Notes under the pieces: generated by a model
Database searches by the model: none
Told to the model about the DNA's origin: nothing
Seen by the model: only the letters and a program-made list of their open reading frames with translations
Origin: a virus
Direction: 5' to 3' (one strand)
DNA: 24,378 nucleotides
Virus record (IMG/VR): IMGVR_UViG_3300006752_000218
Span: 1-24,378 of that record
In this document: one piece after another, positions 1 through 24,378 of the stretch
How positions within the stretch are numbered: position 1 is the first letter of the stretch
Layout of the letters: every line of letters starts with the position of its first letter
Program-made: the position numbers and the translations under genes

Positions 1-164
1 TTTTCCATGTGGTCTTGATACATTACTCTATCACTATCACACCTTTGCATCATAACATTTATTTGATCCACATATAGCTGAGAAATGTACCAAAGTGCAG
101 CACACGCTATAGTCAAGGCGCCACCTTGACCGAGGATATGTCTTAACCATTCTTCTTTTGTCAT
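1..164 (-). CDS. Partial small membrane protein, holin-like
   Basis: An ATG at 164 opens a frame that stays open to the left edge (54 complete codons), so the C-terminus lies outside the window. It has a very strong ribosome site, GGAGGTAAC directly before the ATG. The visible protein begins MTKEEWLRHILGQGG. It then has a hydrophobic stretch at about residues 13-31 (ALTIACAALWYISQLYV) and a polar tail with several charged residues. A short charged N-terminus, one membrane segment and a hydrophilic tail, placed right after the fibre genes, is what small phage holins or holin-like proteins look like. T7 places holin 17.5 immediately after the fibre gene. The holin role is inferred from topology and position only. 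A spanin component or an unrelated small membrane protein remains possible. It is separated from the fibre genes by an intrinsic terminator. Confidence 0.5.
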   Translation of the reverse strand, partial: MTKEEWLRHILGQGGALTIACAALWYISQLYVDQINVMMQRCDSDRVMYQDHME

Positions 165-173
165 GTTACCTCC

Positions 174-207
174 AAAAAAAATGCCTCCCCTAGTATGCTA
201 GGGGAGG
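174..207 (-). terminator. Intrinsic terminator between fibre and holin-like genes
   Basis: Read on the minus strand, a perfect 10-bp stem (CCTCCCCTAG with CTAGGGGAGG, plus-strand arms 184-193 and 198-207) closes a 4-base loop. It is followed by CAT and seven T residues at 174-180. This is a textbook Rho-independent terminator. The T run leads directly into the GGAGGT ribosome site of the next gene, so termination and translation signals abut. Confidence 0.88.
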
Positions 208-223
208 ACTACAGAACTAACTG

Positions 224-841
224 TTATGCCATGTAACGAGCTACATAGTAATCAGCAGCAGCAGGAGCAGTACCGAATGTTACGGTTGTTGTTCCACCTG
301 ATGTGACTACTGTGTATTCATCAACTCCGGATGGATTTGATTGTACTTGTTTAAGATATACACCGTTACGATAAATGTCTACTCCAGTTTCCCAACCAGT
401 TGCAACAGCCTGGCTTAAAGCAAACGCAGTAAGGACACCGTTTGTAGCAAAGTCATCAAGCTGAGGAGCAAAGGAAACCTTGACTTCAGTTACAGCAGCA
501 TTGGCTACCTGAAGTGTGTCGATTCCACCATCAGATACCTTAAGACCATTAGCTCCCACTGTAAGAGTAGATCCGGAAAGATCAATAGTCAAGTCAGATA
601 CAGCAGCAGAACCATTGTATGAGGTCATGGACAAACCATTTCCTGCACTCAAAGCATTAAGATTCGCACCAAGAGCAACACCTGAGATAGTAGAGTTGGC
701 CAGCTTTGCATTTCCAATAGCGGAATCAGCAATGTATATACCATCTGCATCTTTGGTAAAAGTACCACCGGATTCGCTTTTAAGTTTAAGATCAAGCTTT
801 CCACTGGTGAACTGCATACCAGGATTTGTAGCAAGATCCAC
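224..841 (-). CDS. Fibre-like protein, C-terminal part of a frame-broken gene
   Basis: A 205-residue frame from a GTG at 841, with no SD before it; the frame is open further upstream to about 868. It reads like a tail-fibre or short-fibre body: low-complexity S/T/G/A β-repeats (for example SDLTIDLSGSTLTVGANGLKV, about residues 82-102). It ends in a compact C-terminal domain (TGVDIYRNGVYLKQV, then DEYTVVTSGGTTTVTFGTAPA). That domain resembles the predicted β-domain at the end of the 91-residue protein at 1096-1371. The upstream frame at 847-1086 carries a matching fibre N-terminus. A single extra base near 859/860 would join the two into one 287-residue protein through A-D-P-D-V-I-S-V-D-L. I therefore regard this as the 3' part of one gene, disrupted by a real mutation or a sequencing error. 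Probable role: receptor-contacting or tail-tip protein. Confidence 0.7.
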   Translation of the reverse strand: MDLATNPGMQFTSGKLDLKLKSESGGTFTKDADGIYIADSAIGNAKLANSTISGVALGANLNALSAGNGLSMTSYNGSAAVSDLTIDLSGSTLTVGANGLKVSDGGIDTLQVANAAVTEVKVSFAPQLDDFATNGVLTAFALSQAVATGWETGVDIYRNGVYLKQVQSNPSGVDEYTVVTSGGTTTVTFGTAPAAADYYVARYMA

Positions 842-846
842 TGAGA

Positions 847-1086
847 TTACATCAGGATCGCAGATGAATCAATAGCAATACCATCACCACCTGAAAATGA
901 ATCAGGTACTTGAGCATCAACATAAGTTTTGATTGCTGCTGCGGATGCAAGTTTAGATGCACTACCGACAAGGGTAGTCTCAATGTCTGAAGAGTTAATC
1001 TTTGCATAAGATACTGCACCATCAAGTAGTTTGTCTACGTTAATGATCGAATCTATAAGCTGATTTCTTACGAGTTGAATAGCCAT
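847..1086 (-). CDS. Fibre-like protein, N-terminal part of a frame-broken gene
   Basis: A 79-residue frame from ATG 1086 with ribosome site TAGGAG, which contains the upstream gene's TAG stop. The sequence starts MAIQLVRNQLIDSIINVDKL and continues with AKINSSDI and SASKLASAAAIKTYVDA. Helical segments of this kind are common near the N-terminus of phage fibre-like proteins. The end, GGDGIAIDSSAILM, breaks off at a TAA inside what should be a continuing β-rich shaft; the -1 frame carries the expected continuation (see 224-841). I see no slippery heptamer in the short overlap, so programmed frameshifting is unlikely. A one-base deletion near 859/860 explains it best. If the gene is intact in the phage, the product would be 287 residues spanning 224-1086. 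Confidence 0.7.
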   Translation of the reverse strand: MAIQLVRNQLIDSIINVDKLLDGAVSYAKINSSDIETTLVGSASKLASAAAIKTYVDAQVPDSFSGGDGIAIDSSAILM

Positions 1087-1095
1087 GTTAGTCTC

Positions 1096-1371
1096 CTATA
1101 AAGGCTGATACACTGCGACCAACGTGGTGCCAATCTCAGGTATAAATGTTGTTGTTAATGTCCGAGCATCGACAACAGTGATTTCCACCCCTGTTCTTTG
1201 TCTCACTCCATTGTAATATATCACCAACGTATCCATATTAAAGGCTAATGGAGTCACGAAAGTCTGTGTAACACCATTGATTTGTGTACTGAGGTCTGAC
1301 TCTACACTACCTGTACCAAAGGCTCCACTTGATGTACCAAACGCATCTACATTACTGGGTATTGCAGACAT
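1096..1371 (-). CDS. Small fibre-like structural protein
   Basis: A 91-residue protein. The ATG at 1371 overlaps the stop of the preceding gene (TAATG) and has GGAGAG a few bases upstream. The first ~30 residues are G/S-rich and probably flexible. The rest (TFVTPLAFNMDTLVIYYNGVRQ, at about 37-58, then a β-rich end finishing LVAVYQPL) is a single predicted β-domain. Its pattern of a hydrophobic strand, YYNGV, a short loop and a T-rich strand resembles the C-terminal end of the fibre-like protein at 224-841 (IYRNGVYLKQV and TTTVTFGTAPA). I infer a small tail-tip, fibre-associated or capping protein. There is no enzyme motif. The assignment rests on that resemblance and on position between the ejection proteins and the fibre gene. 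Confidence 0.65.
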   Translation of the reverse strand: MSAIPSNVDAFGTSSGAFGTGSVESDLSTQINGVTQTFVTPLAFNMDTLVIYYNGVRQRTGVEITVVDARTLTTTFIPEIGTTLVAVYQPL

Positions 1372-1751
1372 TATACTCTCCAGGTAATCTTGACTTCACG
1401 AACATTAAATGTTCCTGTGTCTGTCTTGACCCATACTTTTGCAGGCCAAGTATCTGCGACTTCGATCTCAATCTTTATGACTGAGCTAGTCATTGTATCT
1501 GTTGTGATACCAGTAGAGAATCCTACTTGCGTATCTCCAATGATACACCTGTCTCCTTCTGCATCTTCTGTAACACGCACAGTTAAACTGTTGGCTGAAC
1601 TCAAACTATCACCATAAATCCACAACGCAGATAACGTACCGGACAGAGTAGGATACGAACGATACCCTCTAGATGTAGGAGTAAGGTCAAAGCCAATAAA
1701 ACTAGTCCCCACTTCCGTATCAAAAGATTCTAATAGTTTGTAATGTTCCAT
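1371..1751 (-). CDS. Hypothetical small β-rich virion protein
   Basis: A 126-residue protein I do not recognise. Its ATG at 1751 follows the TAG stop of the giant ejection-type gene with no gap; only a weak purine stretch (GAGAAG) precedes it, so translation is probably coupled. The sequence is rich in V, T, S, I and G, with alternating hydrophobic patterns typical of β-sandwiches (SLTVRVTEDAEGDRCIIGD and SSVIKIEIEVADTWPAKVWV). There is no signal peptide or membrane segment. It sits between the largest internal protein and the fibre-like genes, in one run of closely packed genes, so a small tail or fibre-accessory role is likely but unproven. Confidence 0.65.
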   Translation of the reverse strand: MEHYKLLESFDTEVGTSFIGFDLTPTSRGYRSYPTLSGTLSALWIYGDSLSSANSLTVRVTEDAEGDRCIIGDTQVGFSTGITTDTMTSSVIKIEIEVADTWPAKVWVKTDTGTFNVREVKITWRV

Positions 1752-4700
1752 CTACTTCTCTTGTTGGGTACGTTCTTCTATATCTTTAATCTCTGATAAT
1801 GTATTTCTCAACAACCTTTCCATCATAACATTTTTCTTTGTAGCCTTTACAGGAGTCAACAAGCCAAACATATACAACCCATATGCAAAGTCACGATACA
1901 CATCGAGGTCTTGTTTATTAAGTGACTTCAAGTACACAGACTCGGTCGGTATTGATACTTCCCCTTCTCCTGTAGGACTAGGCATTGTCATATCTTCTGC
2001 CGCAAACATTGATGCACGCAACATTTCTTTATTCATTCTTGTCATTGCAGCTGGAGCAATACCTGATCTTGATGCTACTTCCGAAAAAGCTGTTAGTCCA
2101 ATAGCACGATGTAATAAATAATTTAAATATCCCGACATTCCTTTTTTTGTTCTTGCAAAAGAATAATACTTTCCTGTGCTGCTCAAAGGTCTGCCAGGTG
2201 TAGGATCTCTTGGAGCAAGGTTGTAAAGTTTTATTACTTCTTCAAGATTACCATTCTTTTCTGCTTGATTTATAAGCTCAGAAGGAAATGGTATGGGCCT
2301 ACCACTTTGATGGGCACGATAACCTTCTACAATAAGACCCAAAAAAGGATTTCCTTGTGATGCAATAAATGCAGATTTAGATGTAGAATATATCATTGCA
2401 TCACTTACTGCACGTAACAAACGTTCCTCTGTTTGTCTCTCTTCATTTGTTAAAGATTTAATAGAACCCGCCATAACTAAGAATGATGAACTCATTAACT
2501 CAAACATTGATATAGAAGGATTTACTGGACCACCAGCATAATAATCTGTACCTTCTGTGGACTCTGTAAAAATATTAAAGATTCTTGAATCTTGTTGTAC
2601 TTGCATTGCACGATCTTCTGTTTCAGTATTTAATCTTGCTTGAACCTTAAGCAATCCTAATGATGGATTAGCAACATCACTTAAAATAGAACGATACATC
2701 GCATTGATTGTTTCAACACCCATTGTACGCATAAACGAATAAAAGTATATGTATTTAGATACATGTCTTTTTTCAAAACCAGTCAATGAACCATAATCTA
2801 ACATTGAACGTCTAGCTTTTTCAGAAGCCTGGAGAATGTTTTCACCATCTTTAAGAGATTCAAAAAATATATATCTTCTCATTTCTGTGTCTTGTATTTT
2901 ATTAAACTCAGCCCAAAAGTTTTTACCTGATGGAGAAAGATTATCAATAACTTTTTTTGCAAAGTTTTTAGTGTGACCAAAACCATAACGAGCTACTCCA
3001 TCAGGAGTTAGTTGTGAATCTATTAAAAATCTAGTCCATTCTGTATCCATAAAATCTGCATCTGATCTTGAAAATGAGACTCCATTCTTTATCATTGATT
3101 CTCTAATCTCTCCTGCTGTAAAATCACGAATAGCACCATCAGATTGTCGTATTATTACTTCATCAGCTGGAGCTACCATTACTTTATTTGAATCTATAAA
3201 ACCTGTAAAAGACTTTCTTCCAAGCCCACGAATAACTTTTCTTGCTACTGGGCCTGTAAATATACCCATACTTCCAGATAAAGCAACAAACTTCGCAGCA
3301 GTTCTTACTTTCATCTTACCGGACCCAAGAGCAGCAAAATATAAATATGCAGCAGTAACTCTGTTTGTGCCAAAAAACTTTAATGATGGATCAAAGTAGG
3401 CGCCACCTAACATTCTTGCAATACTCCAACGTCTTACACTTGAAAAAAAGTCTTTGAAAAAATATTTTATATATGAAGATGTTGGGTTTTTTGCTGCTGC
3501 AAACTGTTCTTGCAAACTAGTAAGAAATCTTTTTGTTTTCAGCTCTGAGTGAGAAATCATATCAAGGACTTTTGTTATCTGTTCTTGATTTGATTCTCCA
3601 AAAATAACACCAATATTTTTTTGGCCTATGTATTCAATACGTGGTTGCATATTTTTTATATTATTCAACATTACTTCATTGCTGACACCATAACGAGTCA
3701 TATAATCTGACACACTTTGCATCTGTTGAGTAAACAATCCATCTGTTACTCCATCAGACCGTAAAGTAAGATTGTTTAAGTATTGTTGACGCATTGAAAC
3801 AAGTATTCCTTCTCCTGAAAATAAATCTTTTTCTAACATATTTACAATCTTTTGTTGTTCTGTTGTCAATCCTGTTTCACTAAACTTCGTGCGTATTTCA
3901 TTCAGTATTTTACGTGATTGTTTTTCTACCTTTTCAAAAGTTTTACTAGTTAATACTCCTTTGTCATAAAGATTTACAACAAAATCATTTACATCATTTA
4001 ATACAGGACTTTCATTCTCTATCATTTTTGATAGATACTTATTAAAAAACGATTTTTGTATTTCTCTACTACTGTTTCTCCAAATGTCTACCGCCATTCC
4101 ATCAAACAATGTTTCTCTTATTTGATGAATCCACAGTTCAAGTGTTTCCCCAGGTAGCAAACCTTTATTCTTCGCTATTTGTGCTGTATTCTTTAACCTT
4201 ACTACCAGCTCTTCTGCGATTTCTTTTGTAGATTCTAAGCCCAATGTAGCTGATTGACTTCGTTCAAGATTAACAAACATGTCAGGAGAACGAGCAATAA
4301 AATCATCAATCTGCAATGCCATGTTTTCTGTTCTTTGTATTTGAAACATTTTTTCTGCCAAAGGAACAACATAATCTTCTTCCCCTGGCAACAGAAGAAG
4401 TTTCTTCTGTTGCAAACCGTAGTTTCTCATAGCAGGATTAAGTTTTCGAAGTTCTTCAATAACTTCTTTATAGTTATCTAGAGTTAAAGGTTTAATATTG
4501 TTTGGTTTCCAATAAGGTGCTTTTTTATCTATACGAATCAAGTCATATATATTATCTTTCCAACGAGCAGGAATGTCTTTTACATTGGGAGGAAGTTTGA
4601 AAAAACCTTCTACAACACTTTTCCATGTGCTTGCTCTATATATCTGTTCGGATACTACCTCCATGTTTTTTTCAAGGAAGTCTATTTGTTTTACAAAATC

Positions 4701-19382: not shown

Positions 19383-21068
19383 CTATAAAACTTGTGCAAC
19401 AGCTTGCGGGGAACCTTGTTGGCCTTGTTCAAGTGCTGCTGTGGGGGAAGGTTGTTGTTGTGTCTGAGCTAAATCTTGTATTCCTTCTACTTGTGTTTCC
19501 AAAAAATCTTCCGGAAGGTCAAGTTTGCGTACAAGTTCTTGTAATACTTTTTGTTGTGGAACACCAAGTTCCATCAACATACCAATAGAGTTCATAAAGT
19601 CTTGTTTTTTTACAGCATCAGATACAGGTGTCGCTCCTGCATCCAAAGCATAGAAGTTAAAGTCTCCATCTAAATCTTCTTGTCGGACTACCTGAGTCTT
19701 GCCATTGATAACAATAACATCTGGATCATCTTCTAGAAAAATCTTCATCATGCTGACATATACAGAGGCGCAATGTTCAATCATTGCATCACGTTCTCTT
19801 GCCAATCTTCCGATTTCCGATGAACTATACGATGCCAATGCAGTAATCTCTGTGGCGGTAGCTCTTGTTGCTTCACCTCTTGTAAAGGGAGCCATGACAG
19901 AGCCACGCTGAAAATCATCATTTACTTGTCGAACATATGTCTCCAGCTCAGCAGGAACAGAAGCATGTGGGACCGCTTGGATTGAACCTGCAAGATTCTG
20001 ACTAGGAGATAGCTCTGCTTCTATATATTCACCATCTGCACCCAAGGCAAGTTTTGCCATATCTTCATCGGTAAATACACCTTTCTTTACAACCCATTGT
20101 CTTGCTGCTCTACGTACCATTGTAGACTGGTATGTACGAATAATGTTTGTCTCTTCTACCTGGCTATATACTCTGCGAAGTGCAGAATACCCACGAAGAG
20201 GAAGATCAGGTTGACGAGAAAAGTACAAAGGAACAAGAGGTGCAATAGGATTATTGGCTGCATCTGTAAATGGTATCTGATCGTACTTCTGTTTTTCGGA
20301 TTCTTCACCATCACCTATCTCGATCTCTACTCCATCAAACAACCACTTCTCACCATTAAGATAATCAGGACTCCAAACATACATCTTGTTGTTTTCCAAG
20401 TCATAAAACTCTACAACCTGGATGTATTCAAAAGGACTTTCAGGTTCTTGACCACTTTCATTCAATGCAGATAGATTGACACCCATATATCTTGCATTGT
20501 TTTCGCTATTATCGTAGTCCAAAAATCTTATCAACTGGTGAGTAGCATATCTTTTGTTGCCATACTTGGCTTTTGCTTCCTGTAAAGTGATGTGGTATCT
20601 GTGGCCTACATACTTTTGCTGACTCCAAGATCCAGCATCGGTATCTACAACAACATCCCATGCCGCAACTGCTGACACACCCACACGCTTAAATGGATCA
20701 GGATGCTGTGTTGCATACAGTTTCAGAAATGCACATGGGTATATCAGGGCTAGTCGTGACACATCCTCTATCTGTGTGCGGATCTTATCAAGGAACGCAT
20801 TGGATAGGGCTTGGACTTTGTTTGAATCCCCTCTTCCTCGTACATCACCCTTGACAACCACAGAAGGATTGCGTGAATACAACGAGGCAATGTAACCTTC
20901 TACGTATTCATATGCACGTGTTGTTTCAATCAAAACCTGGTCGGGTGAATAATCTTTATCCCAAAACCTAGTCATGTACGCAGCTCGTAACTTACGAAGT
21001 TCTGACTTCTGTTCATCCCAATATGCTTCATGTCTACGAAATAAAGCCTCGGCTATCTTTGCTTTCAT
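19383..21068 (-). CDS. Portal protein (head-tail connector)
   Basis: A 561-residue protein. The ATG at 21068 overlaps the terminase stop (ATGA) and has TAGGAG eight bases upstream. The N-terminal helices (MKAKIAEALFRRHEAYWDEQ) resemble the start of podovirus portals (T7 gp8 has 536 residues). The wing contains an aromatic β-region (SPFEYIQVVEFYDLENNKMY, about 211-230). RGYSALRRVYSQVEETNIIR (about 292-311) is the region preceding the clip. GEATRATATEI (about 398-408) followed by long helices is typical of the portal stem-crown region. A Q-rich tail ends it. Twelve copies would form the DNA gate at the capsid vertex, bound by the terminase outside and the adaptor below. Family assignment is based on this pattern and on its position between terminase and scaffold. 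Confidence 0.88.
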   Translation of the reverse strand: MKAKIAEALFRRHEAYWDEQKSELRKLRAAYMTRFWDKDYSPDQVLIETTRAYEYVEGYIASLYSRNPSVVVKGDVRGRGDSNKVQALSNAFLDKIRTQIEDVSRLALIYPCAFLKLYATQHPDPFKRVGVSAVAAWDVVVDTDAGSWSQQKYVGHRYHITLQEAKAKYGNKRYATHQLIRFLDYDNSENNARYMGVNLSALNESGQEPESPFEYIQVVEFYDLENNKMYVWSPDYLNGEKWLFDGVEIEIGDGEESEKQKYDQIPFTDAANNPIAPLVPLYFSRQPDLPLRGYSALRRVYSQVEETNIIRTYQSTMVRRAARQWVVKKGVFTDEDMAKLALGADGEYIEAELSPSQNLAGSIQAVPHASVPAELETYVRQVNDDFQRGSVMAPFTRGEATRATATEITALASYSSSEIGRLARERDAMIEHCASVYVSMMKIFLEDDPDVIVINGKTQVVRQEDLDGDFNFYALDAGATPVSDAVKKQDFMNSIGMLMELGVPQQKVLQELVRKLDLPEDFLETQVEGIQDLAQTQQQPSPTAALEQGQQGSPQAVAQVL

Positions 21069-22612
21069 TGTGCGCTCCTATATGGCAACCGCATCAAGCG
21101 TATCCGCTTTGCTCTTTTATTGCTAATCAATCTATCCATCAAACCTTGTTTCGCATTGCGAACCATATAACTTGGTATATCTCTAGCACACCTGTAAGCC
21201 AATGCCATTGCATCAGCCATATCATCATGTAGGCCATTTGGTGCTTCAGGAGCTACTTTGTATATCGTCATACTTCGAAGTTCCATCAAGGTTGTCATGT
21301 CTAGTCTTGTCAGCATATCGGCAGATACCATTTCTCGTAAAATCTCGTAAGCCTCAATCTTGCTTTTTGCAGATGTAACCCAATGCTTACCTTCTGCACT
21401 ATACCAAAGATTTGTATACCCATAGTCAATGAGCTTCTGAATCACTACATGTCCATGGTTATTACTCTCACACAGTATCAAAGCATCATTATACTTCTGT
21501 CCAATGTGCATAATCTTTTCAGAAAACTCTACTGGACTAATCGTATTGCACCTGTATTGGTATACTACTTCTCGGGAGGAAAGAGAAACCACACAGATAC
21601 AAGAATAATCACCGCCCACACCACCAGCAACATCCACTCCAATGGCATATACATCCTCATTGTATACCTCCTTTTCATACATACGTTCATTACCATCAAA
21701 GATGATCGGCTCTACTTTGTCAAGTGCGTCAGGATCAAAATAGGCAGAAGAACCAAAAGAAAAAGCATCATCAATACTGGCAGGATACTCACGCTTAAAC
21801 TTATCAATGCCAATCGTGGCTACCTGTTCTCGTCTCCACTGTATTTGATCGTCATCTAATCCATACAAGTTTATGAGTTTCTGTTCTTCCTCTGTATATA
21901 TCATGTCGGTTGGAGCTGGAGTCCTGTAGTTCTCATGCTGCCACCACCAAAATGTTATCAATGTCCATCCATTATCCGGTGCTTCCTTGCACAATCTATG
22001 AAATACGTCACCCACAGTATTCGGTGTAGACTCAATAACAATCTGGCCTTTACCAACAGTAGCAACAACCTGAGCTAATACTTCTCCTTGGTCGGGATAA
22101 AAAGCAAACTCGCTCAGATGTGCAGCGTTCAGTGTAAAACTTCTTGTTCCTCCACTTGAACGAGCAGTGTACGACGATAGGCCTGCTTGTGTATCATCGA
22201 AAATCATATCGGTTGTGTTGTCAATCGAACAATGACGCTTCAACATTTCAGGCAAACCATTCAAAAAAAGATTGTCCATCTTCCGAAGATGCTTTGCGGA
22301 ACGGTCATGGAAACTCAATACACCATACTTTATCGGGTCATGACTTGTGTATATCTTCCAAAAGGCAAACGCTCTCAATAAAGTACTCACACCAATCTGA
22401 CGTGGCTTTACAACAATAATCTTATTGCTCGTCTGTATCTGCTTCAACAACTGTTCCTGCTCAGGATACAGGTCAAACTGCTTATATGCTCCTGTGTATT
22501 TATCCTGGACTCTCAGCAAACGAAAAAACAATACCGGATCTGACAACAACTTCTGTAGCTCTGCCCTGTGTCTGCGAGGAACCTTGTACGATATATACGG
22601 AGCCTTACTCAT
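21065..22612 (-). CDS. terL: Terminase large subunit
   Basis: A 515-residue ATPase-nuclease that pumps DNA into the capsid and cuts it. The ATG at 22612 overlaps the small-subunit stop (ATGA). ATPase: Walker-A-type KPRQIGVST at 69-77, and LNAAHLSEFAFY at 161-172 as the Walker B/catalytic-Glu region (E168 the likely catalytic residue). ESTPN at 194-198 fits the coupling motif position. Nuclease (RNase H fold): D327 in IGVDVAGGVGGDYS, E382 in CESNNHGH, and D463/D464 in LHDDMADAMA. All three acidic clusters are present in the expected order. The length is normal for the family. It is expressed with the small subunit and portal. The motifs make the identity secure; the packaging mode (headful or site-specific) cannot be read from the sequence. 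Confidence 0.96.
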   Translation of the reverse strand: MSKAPYISYKVPRRHRAELQKLLSDPVLFFRLLRVQDKYTGAYKQFDLYPEQEQLLKQIQTSNKIIVVKPRQIGVSTLLRAFAFWKIYTSHDPIKYGVLSFHDRSAKHLRKMDNLFLNGLPEMLKRHCSIDNTTDMIFDDTQAGLSSYTARSSGGTRSFTLNAAHLSEFAFYPDQGEVLAQVVATVGKGQIVIESTPNTVGDVFHRLCKEAPDNGWTLITFWWWQHENYRTPAPTDMIYTEEEQKLINLYGLDDDQIQWRREQVATIGIDKFKREYPASIDDAFSFGSSAYFDPDALDKVEPIIFDGNERMYEKEVYNEDVYAIGVDVAGGVGGDYSCICVVSLSSREVVYQYRCNTISPVEFSEKIMHIGQKYNDALILCESNNHGHVVIQKLIDYGYTNLWYSAEGKHWVTSAKSKIEAYEILREMVSADMLTRLDMTTLMELRSMTIYKVAPEAPNGLHDDMADAMALAYRCARDIPSYMVRNAKQGLMDRLISNKRAKRIRLMRLPYRSAQ

Positions 22613-22992
22613 TTCTTATCTACCAGCTTCAAGATACTTTTCATTTCACCATCGTTGGCCGAATGAAACTTACCTTTGATTCCCTTCTTGTTGCGAAACG
22701 TATCAATCACATACTTTGCAGCAGAAACCTTTGCACCATCATTAGCACTACCCGCCATAACAAACTGCAATGTCTTGTACGCAGTATCCAATAAGTTCCT
22801 CTCTCGTACCTCTGTATCAAGCAAAGGCTCGTTGTATCCTATCACAAGAGCTTTGAAATCTGCCTTGGACTTCCAGTTTATCAACGTCTGTCTAGATACT
22901 CCAACTTCATTGGCTATCTGCTTCAAACTTAAATAACCCTGAGCGCACAACAATGCTGCCTTCTTATGCTTCTGTGTAATCTTCATCGCCAT
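22609..22992 (-). CDS. terS: Terminase small subunit
   Basis: A 127-residue DNA-recognition subunit. The ATG at 22992 lies one base after the RusA stop and has AGGT nearby. The N-terminus carries a helix-turn-helix at about residues 17-43 (AQGYLSLKQIANEVGVSRQT, then LINWKSK), the usual TerS DNA-binding fold. The remaining helical region (LLDTAYKTLQFVMAGSANDG, AAKYVIDTFRNKKGIKGK) would oligomerise, and the end is basic and charged. It overlaps the large subunit by ATGA. The HTH plus direct linkage to terL make the call strong, although the target packaging site is not identified. The short gap and coupling place it in one unit with RusA. Confidence 0.9.
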   Translation of the reverse strand: MAMKITQKHKKAALLCAQGYLSLKQIANEVGVSRQTLINWKSKADFKALVIGYNEPLLDTEVRERNLLDTAYKTLQFVMAGSANDGAKVSAAKYVIDTFRNKKGIKGKFHSANDGEMKSILKLVDKK

Positions 22993-22993
22993 A

Positions 22994-23446
22994 TCATAAC
23001 CTACTTATTTGGATTTGTATCTGTGGTTCAGTGTAATCTGCACAATACCATTTTTGCCCAAGAACCTCAACAACCTGACTATCATCTTCCCATACACCTG
23101 ACATATTACAAGCATCCATCACCAGCTTAATATAGTTATCTATATCTGGCTTTGTCGTTTTCAAAATCCTATCACCCTTTCCCATACTCACTGGACGCTT
23201 ACACATAAACTTACAATATAAAGCAATCGGCTGAGGCTTTTCGATAACCTCTTCCCTTCTTTCCTTTATATGATTCGCAATCACTTCCATAGCATCCTTT
23301 GTTTTTTTCGGAGTATATGTTCTTCCTTGCTTGGTAAATCTCGGCCTACCCTTAGCTACTGGATTCATTTTGATAAAAAAAGTCTGTACCTTTTTAGATT
23401 GTGTGTTTTCTTCTTCTTCCATGCCTACTCCGTAATGCTTGTACAC
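22994..23446 (-). CDS. rusA: RusA-family Holliday junction resolvase
   Basis: A 150-residue endonuclease that cuts four-way DNA junctions; in phages it helps remove branches before packaging. It has an N-terminal PVAKGRPRFTK-RTYTPKKTKD block (29-51). It also has a core KPDIDNYIKLVMDA (99-112), then VWEDDSQVVEV (118-128). Catalytic-type residues D101, D103, K107 and D122 fall at the same spacing as D70, D72, K76 and D91 of E. coli RusA, so the active site looks intact. The start is GTG at 23446, chosen because AAGGAGGT lies close upstream. An ATG at 23422 with GGAG before it would give a 142-residue form and cannot be excluded. It is the first strongly supported gene in the packaging unit. Confidence 0.92.
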   Translation of the reverse strand: MYKHYGVGMEEEENTQSKKVQTFFIKMNPVAKGRPRFTKQGRTYTPKKTKDAMEVIANHIKERREEVIEKPQPIALYCKFMCKRPVSMGKGDRILKTTKPDIDNYIKLVMDACNMSGVWEDDSQVVEVLGQKWYCADYTEPQIQIQISRL

Positions 23447-23571
23447 AGTACCTCCTTGCGTGTTTTATTTTAAAACTATATCATCAAAAAAGTATCTGCA
23501 AAAATAGTATAACCAAAACCTGTCCACAGTGCCTTTAAACGCTTCAAAGTATAAAAAGTAATCCGGATATT

Positions 23572-23601
23572 TTTATGGCTCCCCAAATATTGACATGTCA
23601 A
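23572..23601 (-). promoter_or_regulatory. Candidate sigma70-type promoter for the packaging unit
   Basis: On the minus strand a perfect TTGACA (23601-23596) is followed after 18 bases by CATAAA (23577-23572; four of six matches to TATAAT). The -35 hexamer is half of a perfect 12-bp palindrome, TTGACATGTCAA (23590-23601). It lies about 125 bases upstream of the RusA start and immediately downstream of the palindrome array, so a regulator at the array or the palindrome could control it. No transcription start can be shown by sequence alone. Confidence 0.4.
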
Positions 23602-23607
23602 CAGATT

Positions 23608-23623
23608 GGGGGGTAGGGGGGGG
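23608..23623 (+). other. G-rich run, possible quadruplex element
   Basis: GGGGGGTAGGGGGGGG on the plus strand (C-rich on the transcribed sense). Six and eight consecutive G separated by TA are exceptional in this AT-rich region. It sits between the candidate promoter and the palindrome array. It could fold as a quadruplex, be a protein site, or reflect a length-unstable homopolymer. Confidence 0.4.
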
Positions 23624-23636
23624 TAGTTGTAGCACT

Positions 23637-23992
23637 GAACAGATGTTCATAGTCTGAACACTGTTCACTAGGGATTGACACTGAACACTTGTACAGTAGC
23701 TGAACACTTGTACAGTGGTAGTTAGCGTGCTGAACGCTGTTCACTACTGAACAGACGTACAGTACCTCGTTATATACTGACGGGTAGATAAATGGATAGC
23801 ATGTATAGCCATGAGAGCTACGCGCGAATCGATCGCTGCAATAGCGAAGGGGCAATAATCTACTCATGAGTATATAAACACTGTTCGGTTATCTACTGAC
23901 TAGTCGGTTATGGTTTTGCTGGTGATGGGGTAATGAACGCTTGTTCAGTATCCAAACACTGTTCGGTTACATATACATATGAACACATGTTC
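23637..23992. repeat. Array of GAACA/TGTTC palindromes (about ten sites)
   Basis: Sites of the form GAAC-N3/4-GTTC or close variants lie at 23637-23648, 23656-23666, 23683-23694, 23702-23713, 23732-23742, 23749-23760, 23876-23886, 23935-23946, 23954-23964 and 23981-23992. Several are adjacent pairs with centres 17.5-19 bases apart. Sites one to three and eight to ten share the same geometry of 12-7-11-16-12 bases. GAAC-N4-GTTC is the LexA box shape of Firmicutes and Actinobacteria, and variants with GTAC recall cyanobacterial LexA boxes. The number and order suggest instead a phage-specific regulator, partition-like or replication-origin element. This fills most of the long gene-poor stretch upstream of RusA, in which I otherwise see no convincing gene. 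Confidence 0.8.
23682..23719. repeat. 19-bp tandem repeat inside the palindrome array
   Basis: TGAACACTTGTACAGTAGC (23682-23700) and TGAACACTTGTACAGTGGT (23701-23719) are adjacent, 17 of 19 bases identical. Each carries one GAACACTTGTAC site, so the pair forms a head-to-tail iteron-like doublet. Confidence 0.85.
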
Positions 23993-23997
23993 ATTTT

Positions 23998-24129
23998 TTA
24001 CGACGGAACGTAGTAATATACTAGATGGTAGAATAATCTTTTCAACGTCCTGAATGAAAATACTTGTACGTGTTCAAGGGCCTGATGAAACTTTATAGAT
24101 ATATCTTTGCACTCTCCATATTGTTCCAT
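23998..24129 (-). CDS. Possible small protein, 43 residues
   Basis: ATG 24129 opens a 43-codon frame (MEQYGECKDISIKFHQALEH, then VQVFSFRTLK, ending RLFYHLVYYYVPS) and ends at TAA 23998. TAGGAG lies just upstream, but only three bases from the ATG, shorter than usual. A TATACT hexamer sits at 24172-24177, with only a weak -35 match before it. I do not recognise the protein. It is polar at the start and aromatic/basic at the end. It lies between the palindrome array and the inverted repeat, where a small regulator would make sense, but a chance frame is quite possible. Confidence 0.3.
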   Translation of the reverse strand: MEQYGECKDISIKFHQALEHVQVFSFRTLKRLFYHLVYYYVPS

Positions 24130-24214
24130 TTTCTCCTAAAAGTTTATAGAGATAAGAGAGAGAACATTGATAGTATATTCATCAATATGTCAGGTTGTAA
24201 GTATTCTTTTACTG

Positions 24215-24259
24215 TTCGAGGAATGTTCAATATAGATAAACAGTTGAACATTCATCGAA
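24215..24259. repeat. Long inverted repeat, hairpin-forming
   Basis: TTCGAGGAATGTTCAA (24215-24230) pairs with TTGAACATTCATCGAA (24244-24259), 15 of 16 positions, around a 13-base loop. The arms carry the same GTTC/GAAC core as the palindrome array but in the reverse arrangement. No T-run follows on either strand, so it does not look like a terminator. A cruciform, an operator or an origin element is more plausible. Confidence 0.75.
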
Positions 24260-24312
24260 GAACAAAGAAACATATATATGAACATTCGAACACACATATA
24301 TATATGAGTATC

Positions 24313-24378
24313 AAAAAAAAAAAAAAAAAAAAATTAGAAAAAGAAAAAAAAACAAAAAAAAAAAAAAAAAAAAAAAAA
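24313..24378. other. Poly(A)-rich contig end
   Basis: The last ~65 bases are almost pure A, with only a few T, G and C. This is unlike the rest of the window and may be an assembly or library-tailing artefact. If real, it is a very A-rich region at the end of the sequenced fragment. Nothing in it can be annotated. Confidence 0.8.

Follow-up and report, generated by a model that had tools for sequence, protein, structure and literature searches.

The DNA at 23637-23992 of the window (the whole 24,378-nt stretch analysed, an uncultured phage contig from a virus record, G000) carries a dense cluster of palindromes that is a genuine, previously unannotated and well conserved feature. It is most likely a region controlling transcription, where a small switch protein made by the virus would act together with a second regulator. 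The preferred reading, given a probability of about 0.5 from sequence comparison and a predicted structure, is that the array may be a composite two-protein operator between divergent operons. Its N3 sites (core AAC[AG]S[TC]GTT) would be bound by an HTH protein from the late operon and its N4 sites (CTGWACANNTGTWCAG) by a second factor. This newly defines, in uncultured phages, a previously unlabelled control region, its two exact motifs and a small protein as candidate regulator.

The late genes of the window run leftward from rusA, terS and terL. The features of this region are as follows, with palindromes and unoriented stretches given no strand.

21065-22612, minus strand, terminase large subunit gene (terL)
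22609-22992, minus strand, terminase small subunit gene (terS; HTH)
22994-23446, minus strand, RusA-like Holliday junction resolvase gene (rusA), the first gene of the late operon
23475-23502, minus strand, putative rusA/late promoter TTTGCA-N16-TATAGT (consensus match)
23581-23611, no strand, near-palindrome CCCCAA..TTGACATGTCAA..TTGGGG adjoining the array (by eye)
23636-23649, no strand, N4 site TGAACAGATGTTCA
23655-23667, no strand, N3 site TGAACACTGTTCA
23682-23695, no strand, N4 site TGAACACTTGTACA
23701-23714, no strand, N4 site TGAACACTTGTACA, second copy
23731-23743, no strand, N3 site TGAACGCTGTTCA
23748-23761, no strand, N4 site TGAACAGACGTACA
23773-24032, no strand, second, weaker dyad family of the TCTACT-N4-AGTAGA type (up to two mismatches)
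23875-23887, no strand, N3 site TAAACACTGTTCG
23934-23947, no strand, N4 site TGAACGCTTGTTCA
23953-23965, no strand, N3 site CAAACACTGTTCG
23980-23993, no strand, N4 site TGAACACATGTTCA
24050-24311, no strand, A+T-rich early side with scattered TGTTCA/TGAACA half-sites

The array is enriched far beyond chance. The original prediction counted about ten dyad sites in about 360 bases, and class-specific patterns recover ten, six N4 and four N3. In 23600-24000, TGAACA-N1/2-TGTTCA matches 3, 7 and 9 sites at 0, 1 and 2 mismatches, where dinucleotide shuffles of the same stretch (n=1000) give 0, 0.008 and 0.074; at one mismatch, the remaining 23.5 kb of the window has none. Shuffled sequence had been named beforehand as the way to see whether such a density is expected, and the observed one is far above it (9 vs 0.074). 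Five perfect GAAC-N3/4-GTTC sites lie within 23637-23992, compared with a mean of 0.59 and never five in whole-window shuffles. The earlier count of 25 GAAC and GTTC strings holds for 23560-24311, and against 5.2 in shuffles (maximum 13) the enrichment is about five-fold, not the roughly four-fold first given.

The two site classes differ in which bases are invariant. In N3 sites the AAC, the C/G and the GTT are nearly fixed and the outer TG/CA varies; in N4 sites the outer TG and CA are fixed and the inner A/T positions vary. This difference argues for two proteins. Control spacings (gaps 0 and 3-6) have almost no sites. Among 50 distinct N3 sites the left and right arms vary independently (at offset 6, 23/50 are paired vs 23.2 predicted by independence), and this lack of covariation favours protein sites over hairpins. 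Centre distances between neighbours fall into 26 intervals at 17.5-19 bp and 12 at 27.5-29.5 bp, the second peak, near 28.5 bp, being one helix turn beyond the first. In the window exactly four adjacent pairs have the short distance (18.5, 17.5, 19 and 18.5 bp), as had been noted. An alternation of N4 and N3 had also been described; both spacings are present, but the sites come in pairs and do not strictly alternate. The earlier reading of the dyads as sites for a dimeric protein with preferred spacing is supported, and their position is conserved in close relatives.

No recognised promoter overlaps the array, and its closest site is ~135 bp from the putative late -35. An element similar to this promoter precedes rusA in relatives (by eye), and promoter-consensus matches in the window are in total no more numerous than in shuffles. 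The near-palindrome keeps its position in most relatives (by eye). In the window (23581-23624) and in relatives long runs of G accompany it between array and rusA, and in the relative L066 an N3 site replaces its centre. The early side of relatives has direct half-site repeats and, at a greater distance, a sequence resembling an early promoter (TTGACG-17-TACAGT in the relative G007). The window itself ends in a poly-A-rich tract (24312-24378), longer than any in the relatives read, which is probably an assembly or sequencing end effect within a real A/T-rich early-promoter region.

Searches with TerL identified loci at 81-100% identity, then at 69-75%, 55% and lower. The motif search of relatives proposed with the original prediction finds arrays at the same position, the divergent early/late junction, in G003, G004, G006, G007, G009, L007, L015, G020 and G021, with turnover of individual sites. 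Across whole or long contigs, practically all N3 cores and N4 dyads fall within this control region. A DNA scan with one N3 variant, TGAACACTGTTCGG, returned 60 loci, with clear arrays only in members of the phage group (L062, L066 and L083) and a weak cluster in L100. G004 and G007 each carry a 99-bp terminal repeat of the kind that circular closure of an assembly would leave, which suggests complete genomes of ~32-34 kb. The phage records searched contain nothing closely related to the phage group: direct DNA similarity is limited to a 77-bp stretch in the rusA region, the terminase has remote matches only, and there is no match for the portal, the HTH protein or the portal of G032 (see below).

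The early genes of relatives, among them those for a VapE-type primase/helicase and a ribbon-helix-helix protein, run opposite to the late genes, so the array lies between divergent operons. The dyads thus cluster in a divergent control region, as they do in Cro/C1-type operators of phages. G023 has ten N3 sites at the divergent junction, no N4 sites, and two other genes between the array and rusA (8657), which indicates that the array is part of the divergent control region and not a feature of rusA/terS. The original description of an array upstream of the packaging genes is correct for the window, but does not hold as a general link. The intervening genes of G023 (L164:7186-8654), named by eye from their sequences, are DpdA/tgt-like and QueC-like, and suggest a deazaguanine DNA modification in this phage.

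The best candidate for binding N3 is an HTH protein of ~95 residues whose gene closes the late operon; it is present throughout the phage group, and the searches made found it nowhere else. Its predicted structure (pLDDT 93) has six helices in a Cro/C1-type fold. The best structural match is C.Esp1396I (Z 8.9, 2.4 A over 69 residues, sequence identity about 10%), and 434 Cro, P22 c2 and lambda repressor are also among the matches; small helical proteins commonly give Z values of this size. Profile scores are poor (Pfam HTH_3 E 0.02; PHROG regulators 0.002-0.004); the assignment of this phage-encoded protein to the HTH_3 fold comes from the predicted structure. The original prediction considered a dedicated phage regulator as owner of the sites, and this conserved protein of predicted Cro/C1 fold makes that plausible.

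The recognition region of the HTH protein varies with the sites in a way that is suggestive. The NSVYxWxKGRNQP form occurs in G004, G006, G007, G009, G020, G021 and G023, together with 2-10 N3 cores, while the NTVYSW type occurs in G011, G012, G014 and G013, where the control regions lack N3 cores (that of G014 being cut by the contig end). G011 has two stray N3 cores inside late genes. G001 is an exception, with an NSVY-type protein and one N3 core only, by the rusA start. The association amounts to one or two transitions between related clades, counted partially on a TerL tree of 13 genomes from which a filter left out four distant ones. The window contig stops short of the HTH gene, but in L185, which matches window 1-2620 at 99.96% identity, the gene (L185:3719-4006) is of the NSVY type, and the window's phage therefore very probably has it too. 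The gene lies ~8 kb from the array, with no N3 site near it. A cytosine DNA methyltransferase-like gene adjoins it in G007 (L031:17710-18618), with homologues in several relatives. The pairing of the HTH protein with N3 is testable.

We infer the binding partners, their cooperativity, and the sign and timing of regulation as follows. The array would act as a composite, enhancer-like operator region between the early and late operons of a group of ~30-34 kb uncultured phages. The N3 sites would most likely be bound by the dimeric phage Cro/C1-type HTH protein, with dimers on neighbouring sites ~18.5 bp apart contacting each other. As this late-made protein accumulates it would fill the paired N3 sites, probably damping early (VapE replication) transcription or helping the shift to late expression, and probably tuning the rusA-terS-terL operon. 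A second transcription factor, possibly the host's, would bind N4. Together the two classes would provide upstream control for the early promoter (TTGACG-17-TACAGT in G007) and the putative rusA promoter (TTTGCA-16-TATAGT in the window).

The N4 motif is also present outside the phage group. A scan for abutting N4 sites identified G032, a 73-kb piece of a phage genome that includes rIIA/rIIB and thymidylate synthase genes and is apparently unrelated to the window's phage; no DNA-binding protein is recognisably shared between it and the window's group. G032 has 28 dyads at N4 spacing vs 4-13 at other spacings. Seven N4 dyads lie exactly 3 nt before a TTGACA-like -35 that is followed by a TAGAAT-like -10 on the same strand; such near-consensus sigma-70 promoters, each with its N4 dyad exactly 3 nt ahead of the -35, are found at 42.4-45.15 kb (L209:2400-5150). 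This placement suggests that N4 is probably a transcription-factor operator. Since two phages without a recognisably shared DNA-binding protein have it in common, its presence in both could be explained by a factor of the host, and N4 is perhaps read by a host LexA-like protein.

It is possible, though doubtful, that N4 or even the whole array consists of host LexA-type boxes, and that the phage senses SOS via host LexA or soaks LexA up. Apart from its central and last positions, the N4 sequence CTGWACANNTGTTCAG is compatible with CTRHAMRYBYGTTCAGS, the LexA box published for Myxococcus xanthus, and the N4 core is compatible with the cyanobacterial and Gram-positive boxes (PMC2248561). The original prediction matched the N4 sites to the Gram-positive box. 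They do fit its GAAC-N4-GTTC frame, but their conserved outer CTG...CAG resembles the M. xanthus box or the cyanobacterial core at least as closely, and N3 is a separate motif whose spacing is not that of LexA. In phage GIL01, host LexA acts as repressor through tandem boxes that lie about two helix turns from each other (PMC6182141), and the major capsid protein of the window is distantly like those of the Myxococcus phages Mx8/Mx9, among others. Against a LexA role, no integrase or lysogeny genes were recognised among the genes searched, six or more boxes in one region would be unusual, and G032, like the window's phage uncultured, is only part of a genome and may have a regulator of its own. 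As LexA boxes vary greatly from one bacterial group to another, and a host search via genome contigs returned one remote terminase, in a Bacilli MAG, the LexA link is tentative. Rather unlikely is the more specific proposal that N4 sites are host SOS-type (LexA-like) boxes, present in several copies in two or more unrelated phage groups that infect the same hosts, and mixed here with phage-regulator operators; if so, host stress and phage timing would be read at one switch, or host repressor would be soaked up. The N4 sites at G032 promoters may also point to the host, a bacterium whose repressor uses CTGWACANNTGTWCAG being a candidate.

An origin of replication, with the dyads as iteron-like initiator sites and the A+T-rich early side as an unwinding element, is also rather unlikely. 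Lambda-type origin iterons are abutting ~18 bp dyads beside A+T-rich DNA, which the array resembles; its flank reaches an A+T content of 0.73, direct TGAACA half-site repeats occur in G009, L015 and L113, and replication genes lie on the early side. However, GC skew, put forward earlier as a check on the origin idea, shows no sign change at the array in G004, G007, G009 and G020, and the cumulative skew minimum of G023 lies ~1.2 kb from its array. Unlike in iterons, the spacing and number of the sites are not conserved; their number and class vary widely among relatives sharing VapE, and the N4 sites of G032 abut promoters.

The ribbon-helix-helix protein is an improbable owner of the array. 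Its gene adjoins vapE in most relatives holding that region, and such proteins often bind arrays of short half-sites. It was rejected since its predicted DNA-contact beta-strand residues differ (AMR in G004/G007/G009, CPQ in G020) while the sites stay the same, and G013 has the protein without an array. A pac site, to which the small terminase from the neighbouring gene would bind, is less credible still. TerS has an HTH, its gene follows rusA, and the 99-bp end repeats occur in two relatives. However, phages that retain the terminase do not all have the array close to terS: in G023, which lacks N4, other genes separate it from rusA; related terminases occur without any array in L020/G013 and L024/G016; and N4 sits at promoters in G032. 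Hairpins in RNA or single-stranded DNA are very improbable, for although the sites are inverted repeats, their arms do not covary and six relatives have no Rfam match up to E 1.

The preferred reading, a two-protein operator, makes the array a familiar general kind of feature with an unusual number and mixture of sites. Like the lambda, 434 and P22 Cro-C1 operators, it has short dyads for a small HTH dimer (of the same fold, by prediction), paired at a preferred spacing in a divergent control region. Those operators have about three sites each, whereas the array has at least ten in two classes; its sites lie upstream of the promoters, and the candidate regulator is encoded in the late operon. 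We know of no counterpart of the N3 class in GIL01. The GIL01/host LexA system is similar in using tandem dyads about two helix turns apart for phage transcription control (PMC6182141). The restriction-modification controllers C.Esp1396I and C.Csp231I are the closest structural matches of the candidate, at about 10% identity. Entry 3clc describes C.Esp1396I as a tetramer on a 35-bp operator, comparable to two dimers ~18 bp apart in the array; unlike in those systems, no restriction genes were recognised here. Mycobacteriophage stoperators likewise repeat the site of a single regulator many times within a phage, but as described in PMC9283540 they are asymmetric and spread over the genome, whereas the dyads here are clustered in one region (those of G032 being more dispersed).

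Other dyad families also lie in these control regions. The TCTACT-N4-AGTAGA type has copies near 23773, 23859, 23892 and 24017 of the window, and in the control region of the main clade it has stronger copies, as TTATCTACT-N4-AGTAGRTTA, with up to 8 in G007 (25117-25523; L032:5117-5523). A third family of TTATGAA-N2-TTCATAA-like repeats ~21 bp apart was seen by eye upstream of rusA in L003/L004 and in L036 (G011 clade), where N3 sites are missing or rare. In one relative only, five TTGACA-N3-TGTCA-like dyads are inserted within the array (L015:460-590).
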